From: Anaeromicrobium sp.
GTDB lineage: Bacteria; Bacillota; Clostridia; Peptostreptococcales; Thermotaleaceae
Assembly: GCF_025210435.1 (NCBI RefSeq)
Contig: NZ_JAOART010000060.1
Coordinates: 1 to 45,742, forward strand
Length of the DNA: 45,742 nt
Direction: 5' to 3'
Part shown: positions 120 through 35,727 of the stretch, in pieces
Layout of the letters: each line of letters begins with the position of its first letter
Numbering within the stretch: position 1 is the first letter of the stretch
Position numbers and translations under genes: made by a program
Notes under the pieces: model-generated
Seen by the model: only the letters and a program-made list of their open reading frames with translations
What the model was told of the DNA's origin: nothing
The model's database searches: none

Positions 120-354
120 TATAGATTTCGTATTTATAAACCAGCTTTATGTGGGCCTACTTCAGGAAACTATTGAAAATCTTTTCCACCCAAGTCCTTG
201 TCACAAGCGAAAGTGTGAATCTTCGTATATAGGTTCATGTGTCATGTTTAAGTAGCATAGGATGTTGTGACGTTCCAGGGTTCCAAAGATTTTCAATAGT
301 TTCCCTTGTAGGCAAGTTAATGTATAAAATAAATTTAAAACCAAGAAATCTATA
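120..354 (+). repeat. Family A repeat, copy 1 (MITE-like, structured core)
   Basis: The copy begins TATAGATTTCG and ends AAATCTATA. The inner arms GGAAACTATTGAAAATCTTT and AAAGATTTTCAATAGTTTCC are perfectly complementary over 20 bp. Between them is the conserved core, including CTTGTCACAAGCGAAAGTGT and GGATGTTGTGACGTTCC. Within the core GTCACAA can pair with TTGTGAC, and GAATC with GGTTC. It separates the left mobile-element fragment from the diguanylate cyclase gene, so any promoter of that gene must lie within or beyond the repeat. Confidence 0.85.
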
Positions 355-383
355 TACTTCATATAGGGAAGAGGAAATAGTTT

Positions 384-1997
384 ATGATTAAGCGGAGTAT
401 ACGAGTTAAAATACTAATGTACTTACTATTAATAAGTATCATACCTCTTATGTTTATACAATATGTAAGGTTTACAGAAGTAAAAAAAGTCATAGAGGAG
501 AAGGAATTTAGTAAAATAGAAAACTTTTATGAAAATATAGAGAATATATATAAGTCATTTTTAGTTTATTGTGAGGCAGATTTAAATACTTTAACAGAAT
601 CTATAGAAAATAGTATGATAAAGGACATAGATGAAGAACATATATATGACAAACTACAAACCTTCCTAAATGATAGACAATATTATAATGAAGTAGCTTA
701 TATAGATAAAGATGGAAAAGAGATTATGGCCATAGAAAAGAAACCAGATGGCTTAGGGATTATTTCTACTTGTAAAAATGGAGTGGTTTATGAAAATCTT
801 AGATCCCTATTAAAAAACGAAGAAATATATATGGCAAATATAGAAAAAAGTGAAAAATACCATGGGGATCTTTTAATAAAAGCCCTATACAAAGAAGATC
901 AATTAATAGGATATGTAAAGGTAAAATTAAAGATGAAGATACTTTTAGATAGAATAAAAGCTTACTCTAAAAGGAATGGTTATGAAAACGCTCCCATAAT
1001 GATAAATCCAGAAAAAACATATGTTTTTCATCCAAATAACAATAAAATATGGACTAAAGTTCAAGATGAAAAAATACTTAATATGATAAAAAGCAATAGT
1101 AAGGATATGTTAGTCTATAAGGAAAATAAACAAGTAGTTGTGTTTAAGAAAAGTAAATTAACTGATGACGGAAAACAATCCATATATATGCTTTTGTGTA
1201 TGGATGAAGATAAGTATATACACGAAGATTTAAACACTAAGATTTTATTTGAAATAATTTATGCAGGAGCCATATTAATAACCCTAGGAATATTAATAAC
1301 TATTTATTTGGCAAAACCCATATTAAAGCTAGCTGATACAGTAGAAGAAGTTGGACGAGGGAATTTTAATGTGGCTATAGATATTAAAAGTGGAGATGAA
1401 ATAGAAGTACTAGGAAATAAGATACAAGAAATGGCTAATCATTTAAAATATATGTATCATAATATGGAAAAACTAGTAGATGAAAGAACTAAAGAACTAA
1501 AAATGGCCCATAAGGAGTTAAAGGAGTTAGCCAATACAGACTCATTAACAGGTCTTTATAATAGGCACTACTTCAATAGATTTATAGAAACACAGGAAAA
1601 AGCAATAAGACATAATAAAAATTCCTTTGGTATATTCATAATAGACATAGATAAATTTAAATATATAAATGATTTTTATGGTCATAATGTGGGAGATGAA
1701 ATATTAGTTCAAGTGGCCAATATACTAAAGAACTCCACCACTAATGAGGATGTGGTAGTTAGATATGGTGGAGATGAATTTTTAATAGGTCTTGTGGACA
1801 GCAATGAAGAAAGGGTAAAAAATATTATAAACAATATAAACCATGGAGTTAATATATTAAATAGGGACAGTTCATTTCTTAGTCGTGATATTTCCCTAAG
1901 TATAGGTTATGAAGAATATGACTTTAAATCTACTATAAATGAATGTATTAAAGGGGCAGATGAAAAAATGTATAAAGATAAAAGAAGGAAGGGATAA
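384..1997 (+). CDS. Membrane diguanylate cyclase with extracellular Cache-like sensor, HAMP and GGDEF
   Basis: The protein (537 aa) is predicted to make the second messenger cyclic di-GMP from two GTP. It has an N-terminal membrane helix (about residues 8-28), an extracytoplasmic sensor region of about 250 residues that looks like a Cache fold, a second helix (about 285-308), a HAMP linker, a short coiled coil and a C-terminal GGDEF domain with intact GGDEF at 462-466. The usual inhibitory I-site RxxD just before the active site reads TNED, so product inhibition at that site is probably lost. No EAL domain is present. The ATG at 384 has GAGGAA upstream. A family A repeat ends 30 bp before the start. 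Sensor ligand unknown. Confidence 0.9.
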   Translation: MIKRSIRVKILMYLLLISIIPLMFIQYVRFTEVKKVIEEKEFSKIENFYENIENIYKSFLVYCEADLNTLTESIENSMIKDIDEEHIYDKLQTFLNDRQYYNEVAYIDKDGKEIMAIEKKPDGLGIISTCKNGVVYENLRSLLKNEEIYMANIEKSEKYHGDLLIKALYKEDQLIGYVKVKLKMKILLDRIKAYSKRNGYENAPIMINPEKTYVFHPNNNKIWTKVQDEKILNMIKSNSKDMLVYKENKQVVVFKKSKLTDDGKQSIYMLLCMDEDKYIHEDLNTKILFEIIYAGAILITLGILITIYLAKPILKLADTVEEVGRGNFNVAIDIKSGDEIEVLGNKIQEMANHLKYMYHNMEKLVDERTKELKMAHKELKELANTDSLTGLYNRHYFNRFIETQEKAIRHNKNSFGIFIIDIDKFKYINDFYGHNVGDEILVQVANILKNSTTNEDVVVRYGGDEFLIGLVDSNEERVKNIINNINHGVNILNRDSSFLSRDISLSIGYEEYDFKSTINECIKGADEKMYKDKRRKG

Positions 1998-2014
1998 TTC
2001 ACTTCCTTCTTTTA
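1984..2014 (+). terminator. Intrinsic terminator of the diguanylate cyclase gene
   Basis: GAAGGAAG and CTTCCTTC form an 8-bp stem overlapping the stop codon, followed by TTTT. Family B copy 1 starts directly after it. Confidence 0.7.
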
Positions 2015-2172
2015 GGCATATTCAAAAGATAAATTAGTCATTTCACTGGTTATTTGAATTATTTTCTTCGTTATGGAATCGCTTACATATGTTTAATATG
2101 CTTGCTCACCATGCCTTGAAAATAATCCAAATCCCTCAGAGAACTGACTGGTTTATTTCTTTCATATGCCTT
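2014..2172. repeat. Family B repeat, copy 1
   Basis: About 160 bp bounded by terminal inverted repeats. The left end reads TAGGCATATTCAAAAGATAA and the reverse complement of the right end reads TAAGGCATATGAAAGAAATA, both running on to a CAGTCA/TAGTCA block. An inner pair, ATTATTTTC with GAAAATAAT, extends the fold. A near-identical copy is at 13335-13494. No coding potential was seen, so it looks like a small non-autonomous transposable element unrelated to family A. Confidence 0.8.
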
Positions 2173-2282
2173 AATTACTTTATTATTATACTAAATTTTG
2201 CTGAAAATAAAGACCCTTTAATGAAAAGTGTATATATGCACTAAAATATACAAAAATAATAATTGGAGATGTCTAAATATTC

Positions 2283-2311
2283 TTTACAAATCACATGGAT
2301 TTTTGTATAAT
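2283..2311 (+). promoter_or_regulatory. Sigma-A promoter of the 53-codon gene
   Basis: TTTACA (-35) and TATAAT (-10) are separated by 17 bp, and a purine-rich ribosome site and ATG follow about 50 bp downstream. The match to consensus is close, so the small gene is probably transcribed in vegetative cells. Confidence 0.7.
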
Positions 2312-2362
2312 GAAATACATAGAGTTGTGTAGAAAAAAGTCGAAAAGGAAGGAAGTTCTATA

Positions 2363-2524
2363 ATGGAATATGTTAAGATGTTGACCAAGAGAAGAAACAA
2401 TTTAATGGATCGATATACTGACTTAATAAATCGTAATAATTTATCTGAAAAAGAATTGATGATAAAAAGGGAATTAAGAAAGCAGATTATGGATTTAGAT
2501 TTTGAAATAGAAGAGATAGAATAA
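2363..2524 (+). CDS. 53-aa charged helical small protein, function unknown
   Basis: ATG at 2363 follows a strong site (AAGGAAGG, good spacing) and a near-consensus promoter, and the frame closes exactly before a terminator. This is good evidence that the short frame is real. The product is highly charged (many Lys, Arg and Glu) and looks like two helices joined at N-N-L-S-E. Size and spacing recall Spo0E-like aspartyl-phosphatases, but the diagnostic SQELD motif is replaced by K-R-E-L-R, so that assignment is only a possibility. It is convergent with the zinc-ribbon gene. Confidence 0.7.
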   Translation: MEYVKMLTKRRNNLMDRYTDLINRNNLSEKELMIKRELRKQIMDLDFEIEEIE

Positions 2525-2563
2525 AAAAAGACGCTAAGTAAAATTACTCAGCGTCTTTTTCTT
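2525..2563. terminator. Bidirectional terminator between convergent genes
   Basis: GACGCT-A-AGTAA and TTACT-C-AGCGTC form a stem flanked by A- and T-runs, so it can stop transcription from both sides. It overlaps the last codons of the minus-strand gene. Confidence 0.85.
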
Positions 2564-3113
2564 CACATTCACAGGGTTCTAAATTATCCTCTATCTTATC
2601 CTCTTCTAAGGATGGACATTCTTCTACCTGCAAAGATTCTTCCAAGAAATCTTCATTTTCTTGTAAGGGATCTTCTTTTTTTTGTGATTTCTCACATCCA
2701 CAGTTACAATCACAATCACATTTGTTACCATCTTTACAATTACAAGTGTCCTTTATGGGATGACCACAATTAGGACAGTAGTTTACATGATCATCTAGTT
2801 GAAATTGGCATTGAGAACATTTAAAAATTCCCTTTAATTGATCCATAGTATTTTTACTTTCTTCGATTCTAGAGTCAATTTTGTTCATTTCTTCTAAAAG
2901 AAATAGGGATTCTTCAGATAAGTTTTCAATATTATATTTTTTAAAATCCTTATACAGTGCTTTACCAAGGTCATAATAAAGGCTATCTAAACTAGCCATA
3001 TCCTTAGAAAGACCCATTTTCAATTTAGTCATTTCCGTCACATCAAAGGAAATGTCCTTAATTACTTTAGTACTGTCGATCATACCTTTTTTTACCTTGT
3101 TAAAGATACTCAT
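2544..3113 (-). CDS. Zinc-ribbon protein with cysteine-rich and acidic tail
   Basis: The protein (189 aa) starts at ATG with AAAGGGGG upstream. Residues 1-95 are predicted helical and cytosolic, with no signal peptide. A zinc ribbon follows (C-S-Q-C ... C-P-N-C, about residues 99-117), then a short stretch with about nine cysteines including C-D-C-D-C-N-C-G-C, and finally an acidic tail of about 45 residues with a further Cys pair. The ribbon is typical of small clostridial proteins of unknown role. The extra cysteine run could bind metal. It is a single-gene unit ending at a shared terminator. No specific function is proposed. Confidence 0.75.
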   Translation of the reverse strand: MSIFNKVKKGMIDSTKVIKDISFDVTEMTKLKMGLSKDMASLDSLYYDLGKALYKDFKKYNIENLSEESLFLLEEMNKIDSRIEESKNTMDQLKGIFKCSQCQFQLDDHVNYCPNCGHPIKDTCNCKDGNKCDCDCNCGCEKSQKKEDPLQENEDFLEESLQVEECPSLEEDKIEDNLEPCECEEKDAE

Positions 3114-3246
3114 GTGATACCCCCTTTAAAATCATTTCTATATTATTTTATTGACAATAAATTATATATATGCTAAAATGTCAGAAATAAAAAACTTTTA
3201 TTGAAATTTTGATAAAAGGCACTATTCAATTAAATATGTCAGTTTG

Positions 3247-3433
3247 TGTGTTATGAGGTTGCAATGATTATAAGTACCAAAAGTGAGAGATAGGGACTCT
3301 AGGATCTTATGGGAAAGGAATCATTGCCGAAATGTGTAAATCATCTCTAAATTTACATGTTGGGCATATGCTTAATAGGTATATGACTGTTATTGATAAA
3401 TTCACCACTTTATCAATAAGGCGCTGATACACA
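3247..3433 (+). promoter_or_regulatory. Lysine riboswitch (L-box aptamer)
   Basis: The leader of the aspartate kinase gene contains L-box landmarks: GAGGTTGCAATGATTATAAG followed by AGTACC, then AATCATTGCCGAAAT, then GTTGGGC, and a hairpin ACTGTTATTG/AATAACAGT. The P1 stem can form between TGTGTTATGAG (3247) and CTGATACACA (3424). A terminator hairpin follows. Lysine binding would be expected to favour termination and lower aspartate kinase synthesis. The assignment rests on remembered consensus and on the downstream gene, not on a covariance search. Confidence 0.85.
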
Positions 3434-3459
3434 AAGGGTGAAAAGGAAAAATAACAGTC

Positions 3460-3495
3460 AATGGCCTTTTTACGCTTTGGCTGTTTTTTATTTTG
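3460..3495 (+). terminator. Riboswitch expression platform terminator
   Basis: AATGGCC can pair with GGCTGTT (with G-U pairs), followed by TTTTTTATTTT. The 5' side begins just after AACAGTC, which the aptamer-side hairpin also uses, so termination and antitermination can compete. Confidence 0.75.
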
Positions 3496-3506
3496 CAAAA
3501 AACCAT

Positions 3507-3562
3507 ATAAAAGCTTTAATAAATGATCATATAGGAAAATATAAATAAAAGCTTTAATAAAT
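3507..3562. repeat. Pair of identical 18-bp direct repeats
   Basis: ATAAAAGCTTTAATAAAT occurs at 3507-3524 and again at 3545-3562, between the riboswitch terminator and the aspartate kinase start. The purpose is not evident. It may be a local duplication. Confidence 0.7.
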
Positions 3563-3590
3563 ATGTATGAGAATAGGGGAGGTAAATCAT

Positions 3591-4796
3591 ATGGCCGTAG
3601 TAGTACAAAAATATGGTGGAAGTTCAATTGCTACATTAGAAAAAATAAAAGCCGTAGCAAGTAGAATATCAAAGAGAAGGGAAAGGGGAGATAAAATAGT
3701 AGTTGTTGTATCAGCTATGGGAAAGACCACAGATAGCTTGATAAATATGGCTAACTCCTTAAGTGATAATCCTGACAAAAGAGAATTAGATATGCTCATA
3801 TCTACTGGAGAGCAGGTATCCATATCCTTAATGAGTATGGCCCTTCAAAATGAAGGTTGTGAGTCCGTATCCTTAACGGGAATGCAAGCAGGTATACAAA
3901 CTAAAGGTTTCCATTCAAAGGCTAGGATTGAACATATAGATTTGACTAATTTAAAGAATCATCTAAATGAAGATAAAGTTGTAGTTGTGGCAGGTTTCCA
4001 AGGGGTAAACCATAATGGTGATATAACTACCTTAGGCCGTGGTGGAAGTGATACTACTGCAGTGGCCTTGTCAGCTAAATTAAATTGCAATTGCGAAATA
4101 TATACGGACGTGGATGGAATATATACAGTAGATCCACGATTATTTCCTACAGCTAGAAAATTAAAGAGTATATCCTATGAAGAAATGCTTGAAATGGCAA
4201 GTCTAGGTGCAGGAGTTATGGAAACTAGATCCGTTGAAATTGCACAAAAGTATGGGGTCAAAGTTTATGTGGCATTAAATACAGGGCAGTGGGAAGGGAC
4301 TTATATAAAGGAGAGTGACAATACTATGGAAAGTAAAGCAATAACAGGACTATCTTTGAGTGATAAGGATTTAATGGTTACTATAGATAATGTTAAATAT
4401 GATATACAAAATATAAGCTATATTTTTAATGAGTTGGCAAGTAAGGATATTAATATAGATATGATAAGTCAAACGGCTCCAGCAGGAGGTCATGTGAGTT
4501 TATCCTTTACAGCCCCTAAGACAGATGAAAAAACTATACTAGATATATTAGAGGATGTGGAGAGAAAAATAGGAAATATAAACGTAGAAATAGAGAAAGA
4601 TATAACAAAGTTGTCCGTTGTAGGAATAGGTATGAGAAGTCAGTCAGGGGTTGCTGCTAAGGTATTTCATATACTGGCTAGCAATAATATCCAATTTAAG
4701 CAAGTAACTACTTCAGAAATTCGAATTTCATATACTATAGATACGTCAGATAGGCAAAGGGCTTTAGAAGCTGTGGCCAATGAATTTAATTTATAG
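3591..4796 (+). CDS. lysC: Aspartate kinase
   Basis: The enzyme phosphorylates L-aspartate, the first step to lysine, diaminopimelate, threonine and methionine. The protein (401 aa) opens with the kinase signature K-Y-G-G-S-S (7-12), has the amino-acid kinase domain to about residue 240 (including TTLGRGGSDTTAVALSAKL), then two ACT domains (about 260-330 and 345-400) that normally bind the feedback amino acid. The ATG at 3591 has GGGGAGG at good spacing. An earlier in-frame ATG at 3567 would overlap that site. The lysine riboswitch upstream indicates the lysine-responsive isozyme. Monocistronic, closed by a strong terminator. Confidence 0.95.
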   Translation: MAVVVQKYGGSSIATLEKIKAVASRISKRRERGDKIVVVVSAMGKTTDSLINMANSLSDNPDKRELDMLISTGEQVSISLMSMALQNEGCESVSLTGMQAGIQTKGFHSKARIEHIDLTNLKNHLNEDKVVVVAGFQGVNHNGDITTLGRGGSDTTAVALSAKLNCNCEIYTDVDGIYTVDPRLFPTARKLKSISYEEMLEMASLGAGVMETRSVEIAQKYGVKVYVALNTGQWEGTYIKESDNTMESKAITGLSLSDKDLMVTIDNVKYDIQNISYIFNELASKDINIDMISQTAPAGGHVSLSFTAPKTDEKTILDILEDVERKIGNINVEIEKDITKLSVVGIGMRSQSGVAAKVFHILASNNIQFKQVTTSEIRISYTIDTSDRQRALEAVANEFNL

Positions 4797-4810
4797 ATAA
4801 AAAATTAAAG

Positions 4811-4867
4811 ATAGGTAAGGTCAAACATAAAGTGATAAGGTGTTGACCTTACCTATTTTTCTTTTTT
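4811..4867 (+). terminator. Terminator after lysC
   Basis: ATAGGTAAGGTCAA and TTGACCTTACCTAT form a 14-bp stem followed by TTTTTCTTTTTT. Confidence 0.9.
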
Positions 4868-4964
4868 CGGAATAATTAGAAAAGAAAATAGAAGGATTTG
4901 TTATATATTTAACGAATATAACATTAGACAGGTTATATTTATGGGAAACATAAGAAAATAGATG

Positions 4965-4993
4965 TTGGTATTTCTATGTAAAAGAGGTATAAT
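4965..4993 (+). promoter_or_regulatory. Sigma-A promoter of crt-hbd
   Basis: TTGGTA and TATAAT are separated by 17 bp, with the start codon about 30 bp beyond the -10 box. Confidence 0.6.
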
Positions 4994-5025
4994 TTCCTTG
5001 TAGGCTATAATTGGGGGGGAAAGAT

Positions 5026-5805
5026 ATGAACTATGAAATGTTAATTCTAGAAAAGAAAGATAGAATGGCTATTTTAAAGTTAAATAGACCAAATGCATTA
5101 AATGCATTAAATTCTCAGATATTATTGGAATTAGATAAAGCTATTGATAATATAAAGGAAGACGATTCTGTAGATGTACTTATATTAACTGGAGAAGGGA
5201 AGGCCTTTGTGGCTGGAGCAGATATTTCTCAAATGAAGGATTTAAATGCAGAAGAAGGAAGAAAATTTGGTCTATTAGGTCAAAGGGTCTTTAGAAAAAT
5301 AGAGACTCTAGAAAAGCCATCTATAGCTGCTGTTAACGGTTTTGCTTTAGGTGGAGGCTGTGAGCTTGCTATGAGCTGTGATTTAAGGATCGCAAGTGAA
5401 AGGGCAAAGTTTGGTCAACCAGAAGTAGGTTTGGGTATTACACCAGGTTTTTCAGGTACTCAAAGATTACCAAGACTCGTTGGTGTGGCTAAGGCAAAAG
5501 AGTTAATATTTACAGGAAACATAATTAAGGCTGAAGAAGCTAGGGACATTGGATTAGTAAACAAGGTTGTAGATAAGGAAAGCCTATTAGATGAAGCTAT
5601 TAGTATGGCTCAAAGTATAATAAAAAATGCTCAATTAGCCGTAAGATACTCTAAGATGGCAATAGATAGAGGAATGCAAGGTGATATTGATACAGGCATT
5701 GAAGTAGAAGCAAATTTATTTGGTTTGTGTTTTGCAACAAAGGATCAAAAGGAAGGTATGACTGCTTTTGTTGAGAAGCGTGAAGCAAATTTTGAAACTA
5801 AATAA
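5026..5805 (+). CDS. crt: Enoyl-CoA hydratase (crotonase family)
   Basis: The enzyme hydrates crotonyl-CoA (or a similar short enoyl-CoA) to 3-hydroxyacyl-CoA, the substrate of the next gene's product. The protein is 259 aa, normal for the family. The oxyanion-hole segment FVAGADI (61-67), GGGCE with Glu113, and GQPEVGLG with Glu133 carry the expected catalytic residues. ATG at 5026 follows GGGGGGAAAGAT. The in-frame TTG at 5011 lies inside that ribosome site and is unlikely. The hbd gene follows 18 bp later. The usual partners (acyl-CoA dehydrogenase, etfBA, thiolase) are not in this window. Confidence 0.92.
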   Translation: MNYEMLILEKKDRMAILKLNRPNALNALNSQILLELDKAIDNIKEDDSVDVLILTGEGKAFVAGADISQMKDLNAEEGRKFGLLGQRVFRKIETLEKPSIAAVNGFALGGGCELAMSCDLRIASERAKFGQPEVGLGITPGFSGTQRLPRLVGVAKAKELIFTGNIIKAEEARDIGLVNKVVDKESLLDEAISMAQSIIKNAQLAVRYSKMAIDRGMQGDIDTGIEVEANLFGLCFATKDQKEGMTAFVEKREANFETK

Positions 5806-5823
5806 TTTTAGGGGGAACAGCAT

Positions 5824-6672
5824 ATGAAAAAAATAGGTGTTTTAGGAACAGGTACAATGGGTGCTGGAATTATCCAAGTTTTTGCTCAAAAGGGTTATGA
5901 AGTTTGTGTTAGAGCTAGAAGAGATTCTTCTATTGAAAGAGGATTAGCTACAGTATCTAAAAACTTAGACAGATTAATCAAAAAAGAAAGATTAACTGAA
6001 GAGCAAAAAAGTGAAGTAATGGGTAGAATACATACGTCTACAGATATTAGCATAATGAAAGATTGTGATCTAATAGTAGAAGCTGCCACTGAAAATATGG
6101 AGGCTAAAAAAGAGTTATTTGCTCAATTAGATGAATTATGTAAAGAAGATACTATTATAGCTACAAATACTTCTTCTTTATCTATAACTGAAATAGCATC
6201 AGCTACTAATAGACCAGATAAGGTTATTGGTATGCATTTCTTCAACCCAGTTCCAGTAATGAAGTTAGTAGAAATTATTAAGGGTATTGCTACTTCTGAT
6301 GAAACTAAGGAAGTAATAGTAGAATTAACTAAGGAGATAGGAAAAACTCCAGTAGAAGTAGATGAAGCTCCTGGATTTGTTGTAAATAGAGTATTAATTC
6401 CTATGATAAACGAAGCTATAGGCATATTAGCTGACGGTGTAGCTACTAAGGAAGACATAGATGAAGCTATGAAGCTTGGTGCAAATCATCCAATTGGACC
6501 TTTAGCTTTAGGTGATTTAATTGGTCTTGATGTATGCTTAGCTATTATGGAAGTATTATATAATGAATTTGGTGATTCTAAGTATAGACCACATCCATTA
6601 TTAAGAAAAATGGTTAGAGCTAATCTATTAGGAAGAAAGACTAAAAAAGGATTCTTTGATTATAATAGATAG
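5824..6672 (+). CDS. hbd: 3-hydroxybutyryl-CoA dehydrogenase
   Basis: The enzyme interconverts acetoacetyl-CoA and 3-hydroxybutyryl-CoA with NAD(P)H, next to crotonase in butyrate formation or beta-oxidation. The protein (282 aa) has an N-terminal Rossmann fold with G-T-G-T-M-G (8-13), the catalytic segment M-H-F-F-N-P with His138, and a C-terminal helical domain with the GFVVNR and [12 protein letters not shown] segments. The start has GGGGGAA upstream. It shares the promoter of crt and ends at a clear terminator, so the unit is a two-gene operon. Confidence 0.94.
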
Positions 6673-6676
6673 AGAT

Positions 6677-6707
6677 AAAAAATGCTGCGAAAGCAGCATT
6701 TTTTATT
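6677..6707 (+). terminator. Terminator after hbd
   Basis: AATGCTGC-GAAA-GCAGCATT followed by a T-run. The stem is perfect and GNRA-capped. Confidence 0.92.
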
Positions 6708-8022: not shown

Positions 8023-8056
8023 TAAACATTTTATAATTAACTAGGAGTGGTAAACA

Positions 8057-13328: not shown

Positions 13329-13334
13329 GTGTTT

Positions 13335-13494
13335 TAGGCATATTCAAAAAATAAATTAGTCATTTCACTGGTTATTTGAATCATTTTCTTCGTTATGGAA
13401 TCCCTCACATATGTTTAATATGCTCACTCACCATGCCTTGAAAATAATCCAAACCCCTCAATGATCTGACTAGTTTATTTTTTTCATATGCCTT
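13335..13494. repeat. Family B repeat, copy 2
   Basis: Nearly identical to 2014-2172, including the terminal inverted repeats (TAGGCATATTCAAAAAATAA at the left) and the internal block GTTATTTGAATC...CTTCGTTATGGAATC. Both copies have the same orientation and lie just after a terminator. It fills most of the 416-bp gap before glmU. Confidence 0.8.
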
Positions 13495-13662
13495 ATCTTA
13501 AAAAAATTATAAATATTAAGTTTATTATTGGTTATATCTCATAAAAAGTGATATACTATTTATCGGAAAAAAGGAAAAAATAAGGACGTATAACTTGTCG
13601 AAAAATAAAGTTTTGTGTTCTATAGTATATATAAATGATGTATAATAGGGAGTGATTGTAAA

Positions 13663-16036: not shown

Positions 16037-16062
16037 GCTCTTTTAGAAAAGAGTATTAGTAA

Positions 16063-16115
16063 AAAAGGAACTGTCTTAGAATAATAATTAATATTATTTT
16101 AAGACAGTTCCTTTT
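16063..16115. terminator. Long 53-nt hairpin, probable terminator of the convergent DUF805 gene
   Basis: AAAAGGAACTGTCTTA and TAAGACAGTTCCTTTT are exact complements, and the A+T-rich interior continues the pairing almost to the centre. It lies just past the stop of the minus-strand gene. The stem is longer than a normal terminator and could also be a small mobile palindrome. Confidence 0.65.
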
Positions 16116-16131
16116 ATGAAATTTCTATTAT

Positions 16132-16494
16132 TTAATACTGAGTATCAGTTAAAGATAATGGGTCTTCACCATATTGATTTGGACCATCAGTTCCTTTAAC
16201 AAATGTAAGTACAATTGATGGATATAAATTAACCAATGGAATTAAACAAAGCAATATGAAAGAACCAGATTTATTAAGATCATGAGACCTCTTTATATAT
16301 AAACATGCCATGGGATAAAGTGAAGCTACTCCAACAATACCAGAAAGCATTAAGCCAACTGAATTCTGAATAAGACTATTAATTATAAATGAGATTATTC
16401 CAGAAACAGCAGAAAGTAAAATATTGTAACCAAAAAACTTAGCTCTATTAATTCTTCCATCATAACTAAAAAACATTTCTTTCAATTTAGTCAC
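16132..16494 (-). CDS. DUF805 family small membrane protein
   Basis: The product (120 aa) matches the DUF805 pattern: F-S-Y-D-G-R-I-N-R near the start, three to four membrane helices, the K-R-S-H-D-L-N-K-S-G segment, and the end G-T-D-G-P-N-Q-Y-G-E-D-P. Members are inner-membrane proteins of unknown function. The minus-strand ATG has AGGAGGTGACTAA upstream. It stands alone between prs and pth, where B. subtilis has ctc. Confidence 0.88.
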   Translation of the reverse strand: MTKLKEMFFSYDGRINRAKFFGYNILLSAVSGIISFIINSLIQNSVGLMLSGIVGVASLYPMACLYIKRSHDLNKSGSFILLCLIPLVNLYPSIVLTFVKGTDGPNQYGEDPLSLTDTQY

Positions 16495-22855: not shown

Positions 22856-22887
22856 TATGTTACAATTGATATAATGTATTTGTTATG

Positions 22888-22966
22888 GATTTGTTGATGA
22901 CTAAGCAGATTTACCTTCCTAGGCAATCTACTATGTAAGGAAAGCTTTTGATTAACAAATTTGTAA
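22888..22966 (+). repeat. Degenerate remnant of a family A repeat
   Basis: TTTACCTTCCTAGGCAA...TGTAAGGAAAGCTT matches the right arm end of family A (copy 4: TTTACCTTCCTAGGCAAAGG...TATAAGGAGAGCTT). It is flanked by GGATTTGTTGATGA and TGATTAACAAATTTG, which are mutually inverted like family A ends. The core and left arm are lost. It lies directly before the start of the flippase gene. Confidence 0.45.
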
Positions 22967-24599: not shown

Positions 24600-24838
24600 T
24601 ATGGATTTATAATTTATAAACTTGCTTTATGTGGGCCTACTTCAGGAAAATATATTGAAAATCTTTTCCACCCAAGTCCTTGTCACAAGCGAAAGTGTGA
24701 ATCTTCGTAGATAGGTTTATGAGTCATGTTCAAATAGCATAGGATGTTGTGACGTTCCTCAATTTGAAAAATTTTCAATATATTTTCCCTTGTAGGCAAG
24801 TTACTGTATAGAGAAAGCTTTTAGTTCATAAATTTATA
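24600..24838 (+). repeat. Family A repeat, copy 2
   Basis: The ends have drifted (TATGGATTTAT / ATAAATTTATA), but the arms GGAAAATATATTGAAAAT and ATTTTCAATATATTTTCC are perfectly complementary in a form different from copy 1, and the core is nearly identical. It starts two bases after the flippase stop codon and ends about 30 bp before mazG. Confidence 0.85.
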
Positions 24839-27457: not shown

Positions 27458-27694
27458 TATAGTTTTCGTATTTATAAACGGACTTTATGTGAGCCTATTT
27501 CAGGAAACCATTGAAAATTTTTTCCACCCAAGTCCTTGTCACAAGCGAAAGTATGAATCTTCGTATATAGGTTCATGAGTCATGTTAAAGTAGCATGGGA
27601 TGTTGTGACGTTCCAGGGTTCCAAAGATTTTCAATATATTTTCCCTTATAGGCAAGTTGCTGTATAAGGAAAACTTAGTGTTACGAAATCTATA
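27458..27694 (+). repeat. Family A repeat, copy 3
   Basis: TATAGTTTTCG starts directly after the yabP stop, and the end is CGAAATCTATA. The left arm GGAAACCATTGAAAA resembles copy 1 but the right arm TTTTCAATATATTTTCC is the copy 2 form, so the arms pair imperfectly and the copy looks chimeric. The core carries GTATG in place of GTGTG after the GAAA loop. Confidence 0.85.
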
Positions 27695-28647: not shown

Positions 28648-28659
28648 AAATTACTTATA

Positions 28660-28688: not shown

Positions 28689-28733
28689 TGTATCAGCAAT
28701 TGTTTATTATTTAAAAGGAGGAAGATTTTACTT

Positions 28734-29192: not shown

Positions 29193-29200
29193 ATAATAAT

Positions 29201-29224
29201 ACCGAGACATTTTGTCTCGGTTTT
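29201..29224 (+). terminator. Terminator after the S1-domain gene
   Basis: ACCGAGACA-TTTT-GTCTCGGTTTT, perfect stem. Confidence 0.92.
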
Positions 29225-29258
29225 ATAATGTATAGGAACGGTTAGCTATATGTCTAAC

Positions 29259-29495
29259 TATAGATTTCTGGTGTATAAACTTGCTTTATGTGAGCCTATT
29301 TCAGGAAACTATTGAAAATCTTTTCCACCCAAGTCCTTGTCACAAGCGAAAGTGTGAATCTTCGTAGACAGGTTCATGTTTCATGTTGGAGTAGCATAGG
29401 ATGTTGTGACGTTCCAGGGTTCCAAAAATTTTTAATATATTTACCTTCCTAGGCAAAGGGCTGTATAAGGAGAGCTTGGAGCTACGAAATCTATA
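29259..29495 (+). repeat. Family A repeat, copy 4
   Basis: Begins TATAGATTTC and ends GAAATCTATA, the cleanest terminal inverted repeat of the family. The left arm has the copy 1 form (GGAAACTATTGAAAA), the right arm the copy 7 form (AATATATTTACC), so the stem is partly broken. The core is conserved. It lies between the S1-domain gene and ppx, ending 31 bp before the ppx start. Confidence 0.85.
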
Positions 29496-29526
29496 ACCTT
29501 AATTTAAATACTAAGAGGTGTTTGAC

Positions 29527-30450
29527 ATGGATAAATATGGAGCTATAGATGTGGGGACTAATTCCATAAGGCTTTTAATATGGGAAGAAAAAGATGGTAA
29601 AGTAAATAGAAAAAAGATGCTAAATAGTACCCGTATTGGACAAAGGGTTGATCATACAGGTTGTTTATCTCAAGAAGGAATAAATATTAGTGTGGATGCC
29701 ATAGAAGACTTTGTATCTAGGGCAGAAAATGAAGGAATTAAAAATATTCCCATAATAGCTACTAGTGCCGTTCGGGATGCTAAAAATAGAAATGAATTTG
29801 TAGATGCTGTATTTAGTAGAACAGGTAAAAAGGTCCATGTGATAAAAGGTGAGGAAGAGGCCAGATTAGGATATTTAGGAGTCATAATGGGTCTAGGGCA
29901 AGTGGGGAATATTCTCATAATAGATATTGGTGGAGGAAGTACAGAATTTATTTATGGAGATAGTAAAAATATTAAACTATTAGAAAGCATAAACATAGGT
30001 GCTGTTAGGTTAACGGAAAAATTCATAGAAAATCAATTGGTTACAAAGGCAGAGGAAGAAAAACTTATAGATTATATAGATGAGAGTATAAAAGATATAA
30101 TAGACATTATGAAGGATAAACCTATAGATTGGCTTGTGGGAATAGGTGGTACAGCCACAACCATGGTATCTATGGATAAGAAAATGATAGTTTATAATGA
30201 AGATGAGGTCCATAATACTAAGCTAGAAAGAAAAAATATAGATATGATCATAGATAGATTAAAGAAAATGACTTTAGAGGAAAGAAAAGGAATAGCAGGG
30301 TTGCAGCCTAAAAGAGCAGACATTATATATGCAGGGGCTGTAATTTTAAAAAGAATATTAGATAGAATTGGAAAAGATAAGATACTTATAAGTGAATATG
30401 ATAATTTAGAAGGATTAGTACATGAACAAAAAAGGGGTAAGATTATTTAA
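29527..30450 (+). CDS. ppx: Ppx/GppA phosphatase family protein
   Basis: The enzyme is an exopolyphosphatase and/or guanosine pentaphosphate hydrolase, acting on polyphosphate or pppGpp. The product (307 aa) has the ASKHA-type fold: Y-G-A-I-D-V-G-T-N-S-I-R near the start, IPIIATSAVRDAKN, KVHVIKGEEEARLGYLG, and the phosphate-loop ILIIDIGGGSTEFIYG. At about 307 aa it is the short form without the C-terminal HD domain. ATG at 29527 follows AAGAGGTG. Not part of the B. subtilis order at this point. Confidence 0.9.
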   Translation: MDKYGAIDVGTNSIRLLIWEEKDGKVNRKKMLNSTRIGQRVDHTGCLSQEGINISVDAIEDFVSRAENEGIKNIPIIATSAVRDAKNRNEFVDAVFSRTGKKVHVIKGEEEARLGYLGVIMGLGQVGNILIIDIGGGSTEFIYGDSKNIKLLESINIGAVRLTEKFIENQLVTKAEEEKLIDYIDESIKDIIDIMKDKPIDWLVGIGGTATTMVSMDKKMIVYNEDEVHNTKLERKNIDMIIDRLKKMTLEERKGIAGLQPKRADIIYAGAVILKRILDRIGKDKILISEYDNLEGLVHEQKRGKII

Positions 30451-30470
30451 AATCTAATCCTTTTTTTATT
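30431..30470 (+). terminator. Terminator after ppx
   Basis: AGGGGTAAGATT pairs imperfectly with AATCTAATCCTT, followed by TTTTTTTATTTTT. It overlaps the end of the gene. Confidence 0.75.
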
Positions 30471-30493
30471 TTTAAAGTATACTTTAAAAATAA

Positions 30494-30725
30494 ATAGATT
30501 TCGTATTTATAAGCCAGCTTTATGTGAGCCTACTTCAGGAAACTATTGAAAATTTTTTCCTTTGAAGTCCTTGTCACAAGCGAAAGTGTGCATCTTCGTA
30601 GATAGGTTCATGAGTCATGTTCAAGTAGCATAGGATGTTGTGACGTTCCTCAATTCAAAAAAATTTCAATAGTTTCCTTTGTAGGCAAGTTACTGTATAA
30701 AACAATTTTAAAACCAAGGAATCTA
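30494..30725 (+). repeat. Family A repeat, copy 5
   Basis: Begins ATAGATTTCG, ends AACCAAGGAATCTA, the same right end as copy 1 and the window-end element. The arms GGAAACTATTGAAAATTTTT and AAAAATTTCAATAGTTTCC are complementary with one difference. The core shows TTTGAAG in place of CCACCCAAG, which can pair with TTCAAA on the other side. It lies in the 548-bp gap between ppx and the asparaginase gene. Confidence 0.85.
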
Positions 30726-30793
30726 AAAAATTTAAGGATTTAACTTTAAATAAATATGTGGTAATTTTTTTATCCATTTATTCACATCCTAAT

Positions 30794-30862
30794 TATAGAT
30801 TTATTATTTGGAAGTTGGATTTATGTGGGCCTGCTTCAGGAAAATATATTGAAATTATTTTA
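30794..30862 (+). repeat. Family A repeat, copy 6, truncated after the left arm
   Basis: TATAGATTTATTATTTGGAA, then TTTATGTGGGCCTGCTTCAG, then GGAAAATATATTGAAA match the family A left end and arm. The core and right arm are missing, and unrelated A+T-rich sequence follows to the asparaginase start. Confidence 0.75.
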
Positions 30863-30998
30863 ACCTTAAATTAAAATAATTAAGAATTAAATACTGATTT
30901 CTTAACAAATTAAAGAACTGGGACAAATTAATAGAAATAAATTGATTATATAGTAAAATAAGGATAGACACTTTAAAAGTATATAGAGGAGGATATTA

Positions 30999-31979
30999 AT
31001 GAGAAAAAAAGTAGCTATTGTATTTACTGGTGGAACCATATCTATGAAAATAGATCCTAAAATATCAGCGGCAATTCCTGCTTTATCTGGAGAACAAATC
31101 ATGTCCATGGTGACGAATATAGATAAGTATGCAGATATAGAGCCAATAGAGCTTGCTAGAATACCTGGACCACATATGTCTCCTGAAAAAATGTTGGAAT
31201 TATCAAAATTAGTAAAGAGATTGGTGGCAAGGGAAGATATAACAGGAGTAGTAGTAACCCACGGAACAGATTCTTTAGAGGAAACAGCCTATTTTCTAGA
31301 TTTATCTATTAATACGTACAAGCCAATCATTGTTGTAGGAGCCATGAGAAGTAATTCGGAGCTTGGTTATGATGGGGCTAGTAATATTTCGGCAGCCATA
31401 TGTACGGTTATTAGTGAAGAAGCAAAAAATAAAGGTGTTTTGGTAGTTATGAATAATGAAGTTAATGCAGCAAATGAAGTGACTAAAACTCATACTTTAA
31501 CATTAGATACTTTTAAATCACCAGAATTTGGACCTTTAGGAATAGTAGATAACGATGAAGTGATATTTTATAGACATATTACTAAGCATACTTATATAGA
31601 AACGGACTCTGTTGAAAGTCGAGTAGATTTAATAAAAACAGCAGTAGGTATGGACTCAAAATTGATAAAATATTGTGTTGATACAGGAACTAAGGGTATT
31701 GTACTAGAAGCTATGGGAAGGGGAAATATTCCCCCTTTAATGGTAGAAGGAGTTAAATATGCCATTAAAAAGGGTGTAAAAATAGTGATGGTTTCAAGAT
31801 GCCATATGGGAAGGGTCCTAGATACTTATGGATATGAGGGAGCAGGTAGAGAGTTACGTGAAGCGGGAGTTATATTTGGAGGAAGTCTTCCGGGTCAAAA
31901 GGCTAGAATAAAACTTATGCTTGCCCTTGCTTCTAAAGAAAATATAAAAGAAATATTTGAAAAGGATCGTTATAAGTAA
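30999..31979 (+). CDS. ansA: L-asparaginase (type I-like)
   Basis: The enzyme hydrolyses L-asparagine to aspartate and ammonia. The protein (326 aa) has the first nucleophile motif FTGGTISMK (Thr13) and the second motif VVTHGTDSLEETAYFL (Thr90-Asp91), plus AMRSNSELGYDG and GNIPP. No signal peptide, so it is cytosolic. The ATG follows AGAGGAGGATATTA. No T-box or other leader RNA was recognised in the gap before it. Its product aspartate is the substrate of aspartate kinase elsewhere in the window, though no regulatory link is seen. Confidence 0.9.
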   Translation: MRKKVAIVFTGGTISMKIDPKISAAIPALSGEQIMSMVTNIDKYADIEPIELARIPGPHMSPEKMLELSKLVKRLVAREDITGVVVTHGTDSLEETAYFLDLSINTYKPIIVVGAMRSNSELGYDGASNISAAICTVISEEAKNKGVLVVMNNEVNAANEVTKTHTLTLDTFKSPEFGPLGIVDNDEVIFYRHITKHTYIETDSVESRVDLIKTAVGMDSKLIKYCVDTGTKGIVLEAMGRGNIPPLMVEGVKYAIKKGVKIVMVSRCHMGRVLDTYGYEGAGRELREAGVIFGGSLPGQKARIKLMLALASKENIKEIFEKDRYK

Positions 31980-32083
31980 AGAAATTTCTAATATAAAAAG
32001 GATTTTGTTAGAAAAAGATAGATCATATGACAAAATAAAAAAAATATTCCATAAAAATTTTAATATAGTCAAAGAATGACAAT

Positions 32084-32120
32084 GAAAACTATGCTCAAAA
32101 TGGAGCATGGTTTTATTTTT
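32084..32120 (+). terminator. Terminator downstream of the asparaginase gene
   Basis: AAAACTATGCTC and GGAGCATGGTTTT pair, followed by ATTTTTT. The stretch between the ansA stop and this hairpin (about 100 bp) shows nothing else. Confidence 0.8.
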
Positions 32121-32205
32121 TATCTAAAAAGAAAGTAAAATAAAAAAACTCTGTTAAATATAATCAGTATATGTCTAAAATTTCTTTATATGGACCTTAC
32201 CTAAG

Positions 32206-32239
32206 TTGACAAATTATTTAAATTTCTACGTGATATAAT
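32206..32239 (+). promoter_or_regulatory. spoIIE promoter: consensus boxes with a 22-bp spacer, Spo0A-type
   Basis: TTGACA and TATAAT are both perfect but separated by 22 bp instead of 17. Such long spacers mark Spo0A-activated sigma-A promoters (spoIIG, spoIIE in B. subtilis). Near-matches to the Spo0A box TGTCGAA are TGTCTAA at 32172 and, on the other strand, TTGTCAA overlapping the -35 box. Confidence 0.75.
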
Positions 32240-32269
32240 TTGCACTAACAAATCAAAGGCGGTGATTGG

Positions 32270-34651
32270 ATGGAAAAATACGATGCTTTTTCATATGAAG
32301 GTCAATATGTAGATACTACAGATTCTGTTTTTAAGTATGAAAATTCGGATATATTAAAAGAGTTTTATAGGAAAGATGTGATCCTTTTCATAATAGGAGC
32401 TTTTTTATTGGGACGAGCTCATATATTAGGTGGACTAGCTCCATTTGGCATTGCATTATTTGGTTTTTTAGTTAGCCAAAATAGAAAAAATATATATTTG
32501 GCCGTGTCTGTTTTAGGAGGTATAACTAGTACTGGAATGGATTTTAATATTGGAAAATATATGTTTGGAATGATAATAGCGTATTCTGTTTTTTACTACA
32601 TGAAAAGGATAAATTATAAGGCCCATGTTATAGGAATCATATCCTCTGTAAGTATTTTAATATCAGGAAGTATATATATTTATTTAAACGGGCTATATCT
32701 ATACGATATGTTAATGTTATCATTTGAGGCTTTAGTGGTCTTTGTATTTACTTATATAGTCTACTATTGTGTACCAGTTCTTCTAAAAAGATCTAATAGA
32801 AGTATATTATCTAACGAAGAAGTAGTATGTATGGCTATTTTCGTAGCTGTTATTATTTCTGGCCTTTCGGATTTATTTATTGGAAGTTATGAAATTAAAA
32901 ATATGTTTGGAATATTAATAGTTATATTATTTGCATATAATGGGGGAGCCAGTATTGGAGCTAGTACGGGTATAACCATAGGAATTATTACTAGTATGTC
33001 TAGTGTGGATGCACCTTATATAGTGGGTATATACGGATTTTGTGGACTTTTATCTGGTATTTTTAAGGATTTAGGTAAATGGGCATCCATAGTGGGGATG
33101 CTTCTTGGAAATATAATACTTACATTCTATGTTAATGGAACTACAGAAGTATTCATACAGCATGAGGAAATGATAATTGCCTTTATAATGTTTTTGTTTA
33201 TGCCTAAGTCCTTATTAGAGTATACAAAGAATTTTGTGGGATCTAATACTACAGAGGATAGCTTGTATAGTGAAAAGATAAAGAATATAGGTGTGAAAAA
33301 ATTAAAAGAATACTCAAGTGCCTTCCTAGATTTGGCGTCCACATATAAGAATATAGCAGATAAGGAGAGGAAAATAGATAACGAGGAAGTTTCTAGGATG
33401 GTAGATGAGGTGGCTGGTAAAGTATGTTCTGATTGTGGTATGTGCAGAAGTTGTTGGCAAAATAATTTTTATTCCATGTACAATGGAGTGGTAGAGAGTA
33501 TTTCCCTATTAGAAAGTGAAGGGGTACTAAAAAACAGTAAAGTTCCTGAAATATTAAAGAAAAGATGTATTAAGGTAGAATTATTAACTCAATCCATACG
33601 AGATCGATTTGAGATATGGAAATTAAATTATCATTGGGAGAAAAAGAATTTAGAAAATAGAAGGCTAGTAGGAGAACAATTTGAAGGCATATCTGAAATA
33701 TTTAATAATTTGGCTGAGGATATGAATAACAATGTAAATTTTTTAACCCATGTGGAAGATGCGTTATACGTGGCCTTTGATAAAGCTCAAATTCAGGTGG
33801 ACAAAATAAATGTTTTAGAGAAGGAAAATAAATTTGAAATAGAAATTCAAAAAAGGACATGTTATGGTAGAGGCCAATGCGAAGAAAAAATAATTGGCCT
33901 AGTGTCTAACGTGGTCGGAAAGGACTTGGTGTGCAAAAAGCGTATGTGTAATATGGGTGATGATAAATGTGTATTTGTTTTAGAAGAGGCTCACAAGTAT
34001 AGGATAGCCACGGGAGTAGCTAGGGTTGCTAAAGATAATAGGTGGATTTGTGGAGATAATTATTCCTTCTTAGATCTAGAAGATGGTAAACATATGATAG
34101 CCCTTAGTGACGGTATGGGTTCTGGTGAGAAAGCTAATAAAGAGAGTAAAGTAACTATAAACATATTAGAACAGCTCATGGGAGCTGGTTTTGAAAAGGA
34201 TTTAGCCATAAAGACCATAAACTCCATATTAGTATTAAAATCCTCTGATGAGATATTTTCTACTATGGATTTATCCATGGTGGATTTATATACGGGGAAA
34301 GTTGAATTTGTAAAGATAGGAGCAGCATCTAGCTATATCAAAAGGAAAAATGGGGAGGTGGAGCCTATAAAGTCAACTTCATTGCCAATAGGAATTTTGA
34401 ATAATGTGGATATAGAAACCTTTGGATATAAATTAGATGAGGGTGATTTTGTAATAATGATGTCAGATGGTATTAGTGATGCGGATAAGGAAGGATGGGT
34501 ATTAGATTTCTTGAAAAATAACAAGAGTAGAAATCCTCAGGACATAGCAGATAAATTATTAGATGAGGCTATAGTTAAGTATGATAATGAAATAAAGGAT
34601 GATATGACCGTTTTAGTATCTAAAATGTGGTCTCCTAATAAGTGCGCATAG
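32270..34651 (+). CDS. spoIIE: Stage II sporulation protein E (SpoIIAA-P phosphatase)
   Basis: SpoIIE dephosphorylates SpoIIAA to release sigma-F in the forespore and also acts at the polar septum. The 793-aa protein has about ten membrane helices in the first 310 residues, a central regulatory region with a Cys-rich stretch (CSDCGMCRSCW, about 385-395), and a C-terminal PP2C domain with metal-site motifs ALSDGMGSG (Asp614), MMSDGISDADKEG and DDMTVLV. The ATG follows GGCGGTGATTGG. Lengths and motifs are normal. A terminator ends the unit, so yabS is separate. Confidence 0.96.
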   Translation: MEKYDAFSYEGQYVDTTDSVFKYENSDILKEFYRKDVILFIIGAFLLGRAHILGGLAPFGIALFGFLVSQNRKNIYLAVSVLGGITSTGMDFNIGKYMFGMIIAYSVFYYMKRINYKAHVIGIISSVSILISGSIYIYLNGLYLYDMLMLSFEALVVFVFTYIVYYCVPVLLKRSNRSILSNEEVVCMAIFVAVIISGLSDLFIGSYEIKNMFGILIVILFAYNGGASIGASTGITIGIITSMSSVDAPYIVGIYGFCGLLSGIFKDLGKWASIVGMLLGNIILTFYVNGTTEVFIQHEEMIIAFIMFLFMPKSLLEYTKNFVGSNTTEDSLYSEKIKNIGVKKLKEYSSAFLDLASTYKNIADKERKIDNEEVSRMVDEVAGKVCSDCGMCRSCWQNNFYSMYNGVVESISLLESEGVLKNSKVPEILKKRCIKVELLTQSIRDRFEIWKLNYHWEKKNLENRRLVGEQFEGISEIFNNLAEDMNNNVNFLTHVEDALYVAFDKAQIQVDKINVLEKENKFEIEIQKRTCYGRGQCEEKIIGLVSNVVGKDLVCKKRMCNMGDDKCVFVLEEAHKYRIATGVARVAKDNRWICGDNYSFLDLEDGKHMIALSDGMGSGEKANKESKVTINILEQLMGAGFEKDLAIKTINSILVLKSSDEIFSTMDLSMVDLYTGKVEFVKIGAASSYIKRKNGEVEPIKSTSLPIGILNNVDIETFGYKLDEGDFVIMMSDGISDADKEGWVLDFLKNNKSRNPQDIADKLLDEAIVKYDNEIKDDMTVLVSKMWSPNKCA

Positions 34652-34656
34652 GTTAG

Positions 34657-34698
34657 AAAAATCTTTGGATATGACGAAAAGTCCAAAGATTTTTTTTG
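34657..34698 (+). terminator. Terminator after spoIIE
   Basis: AAAAATCTTTGGA and TCCAAAGATTTTT form a 13-bp stem ending in TTTTTTTT. Confidence 0.92.
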
Positions 34699-34774
34699 TT
34701 AAAATTTATAGGCCTCTGAAAGTATAACATATGAAAAAAATGGAAATTACTTATGTTAAAGGGGAGGTGTATTT

Positions 34775-35494
34775 ATGAAGGATACATGGATAAAACAAAT
34801 TATAATAGCTACAGATGGGAAGTCTAATATAGGTGGAGATCCTGTATATGAATCTAAATTGGCGAAGGAAAAAGGCATAGTAGTTAATGCTATTGGAATA
34901 ATAAAGGCCAACGAATCTAATGAAAAGTCCTTGTTAGAGATTGAGAATATAGCCAATGCAGGTGGAGGCATGTGGGAAAGGTCTACTATAGAAAAGTTAG
35001 GAAGAACCATGTGTGTTATGACTCAAAAGACTATGAATATGACTATACACAATGTGGTTAACGAGGAATTACAAGAAATATTAGGGACTAATATGAATGG
35101 CATAAGTCCTAAAGACAGAAGTAAAATTGTAGATTATGTGGATAAACTATCTGAGAATATATCATTAAAATGCTGTATTTTGATGGACTGTAGTTCAAGT
35201 ATGGTTCATAGGATGGATAAGGGAAAGGAAAGCATCTTGGATTTGATAGATAGTTTGATAGGTAGAGTTGGAAAAAGTGAAGTTGCCCTAATAGGATTTC
35301 CCCATGGGGATGAATATTATAAGGTTATATGTGATTTTACTAGTGATTTAGATTTAGTAAAGAAAAAAGTAAATGAGTTAAAATGTGGAGGAACTACCCC
35401 TACGGCTATGGCCATAAAGGGTGCAGTAAGGCTTATGGAGGATAAAAAGGAAGAAATAGTAGAAGAGGGTTTTCTTCGAGATAATATAGTGTAG
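34775..35494 (+). CDS. von Willebrand factor A domain protein (YabS-like)
   Basis: The product (239 aa) has two VWA-like parts: an N-terminal one starting IKQIIIATDGKSNIGG that lacks the full metal site, and a second with the MIDAS motif D-C-S-S-S (Asp138) and a GGTTPTAMAIKGAVRLM segment. Its role is unknown. It is paired with a protein kinase gene in spore formers. The ATG follows GGGGAGGTG. The TAG stop codon is the first three bases of family A copy 7, so the present C-terminus was set by that insertion. The length is still close to B. subtilis YabS, so little is likely lost. Confidence 0.88.
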   Translation: MKDTWIKQIIIATDGKSNIGGDPVYESKLAKEKGIVVNAIGIIKANESNEKSLLEIENIANAGGGMWERSTIEKLGRTMCVMTQKTMNMTIHNVVNEELQEILGTNMNGISPKDRSKIVDYVDKLSENISLKCCILMDCSSSMVHRMDKGKESILDLIDSLIGRVGKSEVALIGFPHGDEYYKVICDFTSDLDLVKKKVNELKCGGTTPTAMAIKGAVRLMEDKKEEIVEEGFLRDNIV

Positions 35495-35727
35495 ATTTCG
35501 CATTTATAAACCAACTTTATATGAGCCTACTTCAGGTAAATATATTGAAAATTTTTTCCACCCCAGTCCTTGTCACAAGCGAAAGTGTGAATCTTCGTAG
35601 ATAGGTTCATGAGTCATGTTGAGCTAGCATAGGATGTTGTGACGTTCCTCAATTCCAAAAATTTTCAATATATTTACCTTCGTAGGCAAGTTACTGTATA
35701 AAGAAAGCCTAGCGTTACGAAATCTAT
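35492..35727 (+). repeat. Family A repeat, copy 7
   Basis: Begins TAGATTTCG and ends CGAAATCTAT. The arms GGTAAATATATTGAAAATTT and AAATTTTCAATATATTTACC are perfectly complementary (the match runs to 22 bp) in a sequence form different from copies 1 and 2. The core is conserved. Its first three bases provide the stop codon of the VWA gene. With a terminator it fills the gap to the kinase gene. Confidence 0.88.

Follow-up and report, generated by a model that had tools for sequence, protein, structure and literature searches.

Abundant mobile repeats with a predicted secondary structure are known from the Firmicutes, as in the case of bcr1 and related repeats of the Bacillus cereus group. The window analysed here, which is the whole stretch of 45,742 nucleotides of contig NZ_JAOART010000060.1 (Anaeromicrobium sp., assembly GCF_025210435.1), contains six full-length copies of a new family of miniature inverted-repeat transposable elements (MITEs) with ends that resemble, most clearly on the left side, those of an IS630-type element, and it is probable that this family is lineage-specific and non-autonomous, that it is moved by IS630-type transposases, and that its insertion is coupled to replication. 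It can be set beside bcr1 by description only, as both are abundant mobile repeats of Firmicutes with a predicted structure. In Streptococcus pneumoniae, the 107-bp repeat RUP has 60.9% of its insertions on the leading strand, which mirrors the coding bias, and BOX, which is built of modules and possesses ISSpn2-like ends, has 60.8% of them there (both according to the part of PMC3049150 drawn on here).

As far as that part describes them, RUP together with IS630-Spn1 resembles the new family in being a short non-coding palindromic repeat that is present in many copies and whose ends resemble those of an IS630-type insertion sequence (IS) of the same genome (for the MITE most clearly on the left side), and it is set apart, again by description only, by the length of the MITE (235-239 bp), its apical loop of about 60 nt, and its 91% leading-strand orientation. 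BOX, also compared by description only and within the same part of the source, is likewise dispersed in the genome, its ends pair, and its transcript is predicted to be structured; it differs in its modular build and its ISSpn2-like ends. According to the sections of PMC5371812 used here, clamp-binding transposases with an orientation bias are known, IS200/IS605 and Tn7-TnsE are replication-oriented transposons, and folded single strands at the fork have been described for IS200/IS605. In these systems, as portrayed in those sections, the orientation follows the direction of replication as it does in the MITE, but IS200/IS605 elements transpose in single-stranded form and Tn7 relies on TnsE, whereas the MITE has inverted terminal repeats and TA junctions, as IS630 elements do. 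With 153 of 168 evaluable copies in two species pointing with the leading strand as judged by GC skew, and with a far weaker bias of a control repeat in the same genome, the family offers a particularly clear setting in which to ask why some transposons align with replication, and its leading-strand orientation is what merits further work.

Family, ends and insertion sites

The window is one entire contig (C11) of a draft genome of 3.96 Mb in 148 contigs (G000), and matches to the family were also found in a congener (G001) and in a third genome (G009). When at most three mismatches were allowed, a core word of 27 nt matched the window's genome 235 times (126 forward, 109 reverse) and the reversed control word 0 times, which is why the copies are not due to chance. 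A blastn search gave at least 67 matches, and as it scored only 40 of 395 candidates, 235 is preferred as the copy count. From 100 stretches plus the window, 200 full copies (138 in G000 and 62 in G001) were collected by similarity and decayed copies are therefore under-counted; the copy L188:3067-3301, with a partly decayed core, had not been scored as full by the similarity search. Nineteen of the 138 G000 copies lie too close to a stretch end, and the other 119 were used for target duplication, pair counts and orthologous sites, while the pair counts in G001 used 60 of the 62 copies.

Most copies are 235-239 bp long, and only 2 of the 200 overlap an open reading frame (ORF) call by more than 100 nt. 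The terminal inverted repeats and long complementary arms that had been described in the first-pass annotation of the window are indeed present: the element ends read TAGATTT...AAATCTA, flanked by TA, and the terminal inverted repeats TATAGATTT and AAATCTATA (each with at most two mismatches) were located in 111 of the 119 G000 copies. From the outside to the inside, the TA is followed by the TAGATTT terminal repeat, a subterminal segment of about 16 nt that occurs in a few recurring forms, and an arm of about 45 nt. Next comes a block of 4 bp, which reads either ACCC/GGGT or ATTG/CAAT, then AAGTC, then the closing helix and, in the centre, an apical loop of about 60 nt that contains AGCATAGGATG, after which the order is mirrored. 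One entire copy was folded, and its stability far exceeded that of 200 shuffled versions (z -5.7). The element is multi-copy, mostly intergenic and so short that it could not code for a transposase, and it has inverted ends, insertion polymorphism and a target duplication that consists of the TA, all as in the MITE class; it was not found in a literature search, which is no proof of its being unpublished.

Matches are present in 3 of the 17 genomes of the bacterial family, the window's own included, and an order-wide search with stricter filters and nine candidates scored per genome found the same 3 among 298 genomes, again including its own. G001 has 65 matches, mostly of a diverged type with TATAGATAAAC ends. 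The four matches in G009, two of which overlap and one of which is a 53-nt match at a contig end, possibly come from mis-binning; when parts of three G009 contigs were compared with the fetched stretches, the 15 longest matches listed did not exceed 292 nt, which is about the repeat size. There was no match in viral contigs, searched with one pattern, or in plasmids and phages, searched with one copy. Many of the contig starts among the listed core-word matches fall within the repeat, and it thus probably breaks short-read assemblies of the genus.

The insertion target would be a TA dinucleotide, almost always in intergenic DNA. In the 111 copies (of 119) for which both ends could be placed, no target duplication longer than TA was seen above shuffles, and an invariant TA is indistinguishable from element sequence unless empty sites are known. 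Such a site is found at L203_10842, where the MITE is nested in another repeat family: natural empty copies of that family read AAATTAGTCATTT at the junction, and the filled site reads AAAT-TA-TAGATTT...AAATCTA-TA-GTCATTT. The TA target is supported by this nested site and by window site 29259, and site 24600 is CA in G001.

An orthologous junction in G001 was found for 25 of the 119 G000 copies, with 19 being empty and 6 having an element nearby; this search covered about 0.8 of 4.7 Mb of G001 DNA, in stretches that were mostly chosen for holding copies, which favours the outcome 'occupied'. All five testable sites of the window copies are empty in G001, the projected flanks lying 2 to 33 bases apart there (-67 to 172 over all 19 empty sites, some junctions being less exact). 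These five window copies are thus recent insertions and not conserved regulators, and a role tied to the sporulation genes is not borne out.

At two pairs of sites, L246:6412 versus L166:9028-9345 and L171:3613 versus L148:14026-14147, the left insertion point is the same, with type A in G000 and type B in G001, as if one type had taken the place of the other. At two further pairs, L243:13326 versus L153:13017-13165 and L181:4014 versus L161:10108-10240, G000 has a type A copy within type B remains that are longer in G001, and judging from these sequences the newer type (A) inserts into the older one (B). A 'type B' label on 36 G000 copies was rejected as an artefact of a loose word match, as the consensus of those 36 is type A.

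As to the moving enzyme, a search for DDE_3 (IS630) gave three places in G000, two of them above the curated cut-off. The best match, G000:C114:12-347 (E 8e-21), lies at a contig start and represents the 3' part of a transposase gene, directly followed by a TATAGATTTCGTGGT... end (TATAGATTTCGTGGTAAAGACTTTGTTTTATGTGAGGAAATTTC, read inward). Beyond the terminal repeat, this IS630 end resembles the left end of the MITE (p = 0.0025), and so does an IS-like end at the window edge (p = 0.001), the body of which was not found in the assembly because the contigs break there. IS630-type elements with similar ends would thus be the likely movers of the MITEs in trans. Four points weigh against this: once the terminal repeat is set aside, the right end of the MITE shows no resemblance to the IS630 end (p = 0.32), it is only weakly like the window-edge end (p = 0.047), the DDE_3 match was absent from the G001 search though G001 carries the family, and the assembly yielded no complete autonomous element, which leaves mobilisation in trans to be deduced.

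Orientation of the copies relative to replication

The strand of positive GC skew is the lagging-strand template, and the skew of stretches of mostly 20 kb was taken as a proxy for fork direction. The MITE agrees with the skew, its plus strand being on the strand of positive skew, in 153 of 168 copies (about 91%; 101:9 in G000 and 52:6 in G001; binomial p about 6e-30), 32 of the 200 being excluded as lacking a gene on one or both sides (30) or as overlapping an ORF (2). Between two leading-strand genes, the ratio is 126:8, the agreeing copies being co-directional with both genes, at mixed-strand sites 24:5 (p = 5e-4), and between two lagging-strand genes 3:2. By kind of site, the copies are near the background: 110 G000 copies are distributed as 82 leading-leading, 14 divergent, 9 convergent and 5 lagging-lagging, and 575 G000 gaps as 395, 77, 72 and 31, respectively.

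The overall bias points to a probable coupling of insertion to replication, as is known for sliding-clamp-binding transposases. Another explanation, which is rather unlikely, is that insertion is random and that the orientation results from later selection, with the harmful opposite orientation being purged, for example owing to effects of the hairpin or of transcription versus the fork. That the agreement with the skew is highest between leading-strand genes would fit such a purging, but the bias is the same in the least and the most diverged copies (32:4, 34:3 and 35:2 in the divergence tertiles of G000), and two further repeat families also speak against it. A palindromic control family of about 165 nt with TTAGGCATAT ends (e.g. 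window 2010-2173 and 13332-13495), of which 40 near-complete copies are present in the searched G000 sequence and one in G001, is oriented 26:14 in G000 (Fisher p = 1.7e-4 versus the MITE family), whereas a second MITE with the same ends and another interior agrees with the skew at 7 of 8 places, including two in G001. This count omits four 32-nt matches that cover nothing but the shared end and, where two matches overlap in L230, the weaker one. On these small numbers, the bias appears to be linked to the ends and not to the core.

Coupling to replication also has to face some adverse points. The agreement drops from 126:8 via 24:5 to 3:2 with the type of site, and transcription may therefore contribute; the fork direction is known only via the GC-skew proxy; and the repeat used as a control differs in its ends and presumably in its transposase as well, while the same-end MITE has only eight places.

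Conservation and pairing along the element

The first description had the core as almost invariant, with drift in the ends and arms. In the 119 G000 copies, the mean pairwise identity is 0.911 in the core; the arms have 0.882 and 0.865, and the terminal repeats 0.886 and 0.884. It falls to 0.767 and 0.691 at the 4-bp block and its surroundings and is lowest, with 0.667 and 0.607, in the subterminal segments, and the variation thus sits mainly in the two segments of about 16 nt and in the 4-bp block. The difference between core and arms is 0.911 versus 0.873 in G000 (Mann-Whitney p = 0.10) and 0.774 versus 0.720 in G001 (p = 0.095), so that a centre standing out from the arms is not confirmed within either genome. 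The contrast was overstated but has some basis across the types: in ungapped columns, types A and B have identical letters at 0.85 in the core and at 0.54 and 0.64 in the arms, although the core alignment between them has 22 gap columns of 97, and the core motifs AAGTC, GTGTGAATCTT, AGCATAGGATGTT and GTTCC are common to both diverged types.

The copies recombine heavily with one another, and in G000 they are mosaics: linkage falls from an r2 of 0.405 at less than 5 nt to 0.021 at 40-80 nt, and in the latter class, 96% of the site pairs show all four combinations. Recombination among the copies would homogenise the interior, the terminal repeats would be held by recognition by the transposase, and the subterminal segments just inside the ends could persist in their few recurring forms.

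Each copy is a single long imperfect palindrome with the loop of about 60 nt at its apex, and the pairing in it is maintained. The closing helix (ATCAGA/TCTGAT, ATGAC/GTCAT, GTCACA/TGTGAC) is 98.1% paired in the 53 of 59 G001 copies that entered the alignment (six did not enter, and one of the 53 is type A), with compensatory C-G/G-C swaps at 45/6 and 43/8. In the same copies, a 26-pair structure is 90.6% paired versus 86.7% in shuffles and has 58 versus 18 double-changed cells, and RNAalifold returned only a 7-bp closing helix. Paired sites are linked beyond other distant pairs: in G000, the seven that are polymorphic on both sides have r2 values from 0.08 to 0.51 (other distant pairs, mean 0.030), and in G001, 12 of 15 reach at least 0.245 (other distant pairs, mean 0.051). 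What counts against a general maintenance is that the remaining 3 of the 15 have an r2 near 0, namely in the region of the 4-bp block, at the closing-helix end and at the one testable pair of the inner hairpin. This inner hairpin (GTGTGAATC/GGTTCACA) was rejected as a candidate for conservation by pairing, as it is 82% paired but has an r2 of 0.0 at that sole testable pair in G001.

RNA would favour G-U over A-C intermediates. Counted on the tree at pairs that are usually Watson-Crick, thus omitting pairs whose commonest state is G-U, the changes were 184 G-U versus 179 A-C overall, with 14, 30, 121 and 19 versus 29, 35, 97 and 18 in the G001 arms, G001 core, G000 arms and G000 core, respectively. 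As G-U is not favoured, RNA is not indicated. Over all predicted pairs, G-U cells do exceed A-C cells (978 versus 158 in G000, 141 versus 110 in G001), but this excess arises from eight (G000) and two (G001) consensus pairs with G-U on the plus strand, and it is partly built in because the pair predictor allows G-U. In folds made without G-U, A-C is the commoner state, with single A-C mismatches at 88 versus 48 and 45 versus 23.

It is for these reasons improbable that the core is a functional structured RNA (a riboregulator, RNase site or small RNA) that was dispersed by transposition and owes its orientation bias to co-transcription with its neighbours. The compensatory changes in the inner helix, the core motifs common to both types, the co-direction of 126 of the 134 copies between leading-strand genes with both of them, and the better folding of the plus than of the minus strand in 86 of 119 G000 copies (30 of 60 in G001) would all suit an RNA, as would the mentioned G-U cells. 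However, the G-U excess is confined to pairs picked by the program; the core has a minimum free energy of -18.2 versus -17.2 and -15.9 versus -13.7 kcal/mol when compared with mononucleotide-shuffled cores (standard deviation about 3.2 to 3.5; 13 of 119 G000 and 9 of 60 G001 copies were excluded, as their core did not fit the search word), and the shuffled cores show a similar strand difference; the conservation of the core over the arms is not significant; and at the mixed sites, whose two genes set no common direction, 24 of 29 copies follow the skew. A conserved cis-regulatory RNA was likewise rejected, as the orthologous sites are empty in 5 of 5 cases and G-U is not favoured over A-C. The core was from the outset not recognised as a known RNA family, and this holds: at the gathering score, Rfam gave in the window only a lysine riboswitch at 3244-3434, and with relaxed thresholds, one copy and three G001 loci gave only matches far below the gathering score. 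Of the suggestion that a structure is under constraint, the pairing with its compensatory changes therefore stands, and RNA as the selected molecule does not.

The structural constraint is real, and DNA is more likely than RNA to be the molecule concerned. Pairing may be maintained in the DNA either as a hairpin or by quasi-palindrome correction, which is a template switching in a hairpin at replication. Covariation along the arms can be explained by such DNA-level processes and is not by itself evidence for RNA, which is a caution for dispersed palindromic repeats in general: compensatory changes alone do not indicate an RNA, and here the wobble count and the empty sites point elsewhere. It is quite possible, if somewhat less than an even chance, that the complementarity of the arms and the inner helix is kept without any selection, by quasi-palindrome correction and conversion between copies. 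The about equal G-T and A-C intermediates fit with this, as does the strong linkage of most paired sites despite recombination in the family, but the inner helix and the ACCC/GGGT-ATTG/CAAT block covary while adjacent arm sequence is unlike, and a template switch should copy neighbours as well. A movement that depends on the hairpin is clearly unlikely; in it, the plus strand would fold on the lagging-strand template and present the closing helix and loop to a transposase or a clamp-bound complex, insertion would thereby be tied to the direction of the fork, and the pairing would be selected as single-stranded DNA. If true, a DDE-type element would here have a mode of movement that depends on folding and is oriented by replication.

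Copies and other features in the window

The six copies that had been listed for the window were confirmed by alignment, with their ends being refined; deletion derivatives, the second MITE and the IS-like ends are additional to that list:

120..354, forward strand: MITE copy 1, full-length, TATAGATTTC...GAAATCTATA; its left flank is the contig edge, and a GGDEF gene adjoins
24600..24838, forward strand: MITE copy 2, full-length, between a MurJ/SpoVB-like gene and mazG; orthologous site empty in G001
27458..27694, forward strand: MITE copy 3, full-length, upstream of yabQ; orthologous site empty in G001
29259..29495, forward strand: MITE copy 4, full-length, between S1-domain and Ppx/GppA genes; G001 has no element at the orthologous site and a single TA at the junction
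about 30493..30727, forward strand: MITE copy 5, full-length, between Ppx/GppA and asparaginase genes; orthologous site empty in G001
35490..35728, forward strand: MITE copy 6, full-length, between VWA-domain and protein kinase genes; orthologous site empty in G001
22884..22965, forward strand: internally deleted derivative, left end fused to the right arm with the core gone, between spoVT and the MurJ/SpoVB-like gene
30794..30861, forward strand: truncated copy, consisting of left end and left arm only
45502..45621, forward strand: second MITE, with the same terminal repeats as the main family and a different interior; used for the orientation comparison
45620..45742, forward strand: left end of a multi-copy IS-like element, with the same terminal repeat, then ATG GGT AGA CCA ...; the coding part starts MGRPAMPVTTLH
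1..121, reverse strand: the same IS-like end, reversed, at the opposite contig edge

The neighbours of the copies (spoVT, MurJ/SpoVB-like, mazG, yabQ, S1-domain, Ppx/GppA, asparaginase, VWA, protein kinase and GGDEF) were identified with Pfam on ten ORFs. The VWA-domain ORF (34775-35494) has its stop codon within the left end of copy 6 (window 35490-35498), and the insertion of this copy may have changed the C-terminal end of the protein. In copy 6, promoter-like motifs numbered 2 versus 1.1 expected, and terminator-like ones 0.

Two further features lie elsewhere in the window. The lysine riboswitch at 3244-3434 (RF00168, 110.6 bits) is located upstream of an ORF at 3567-4796, and at 16043-16135 there is an inverted repeat of 44 nt with a 5-nt spacer and 77% complementarity.

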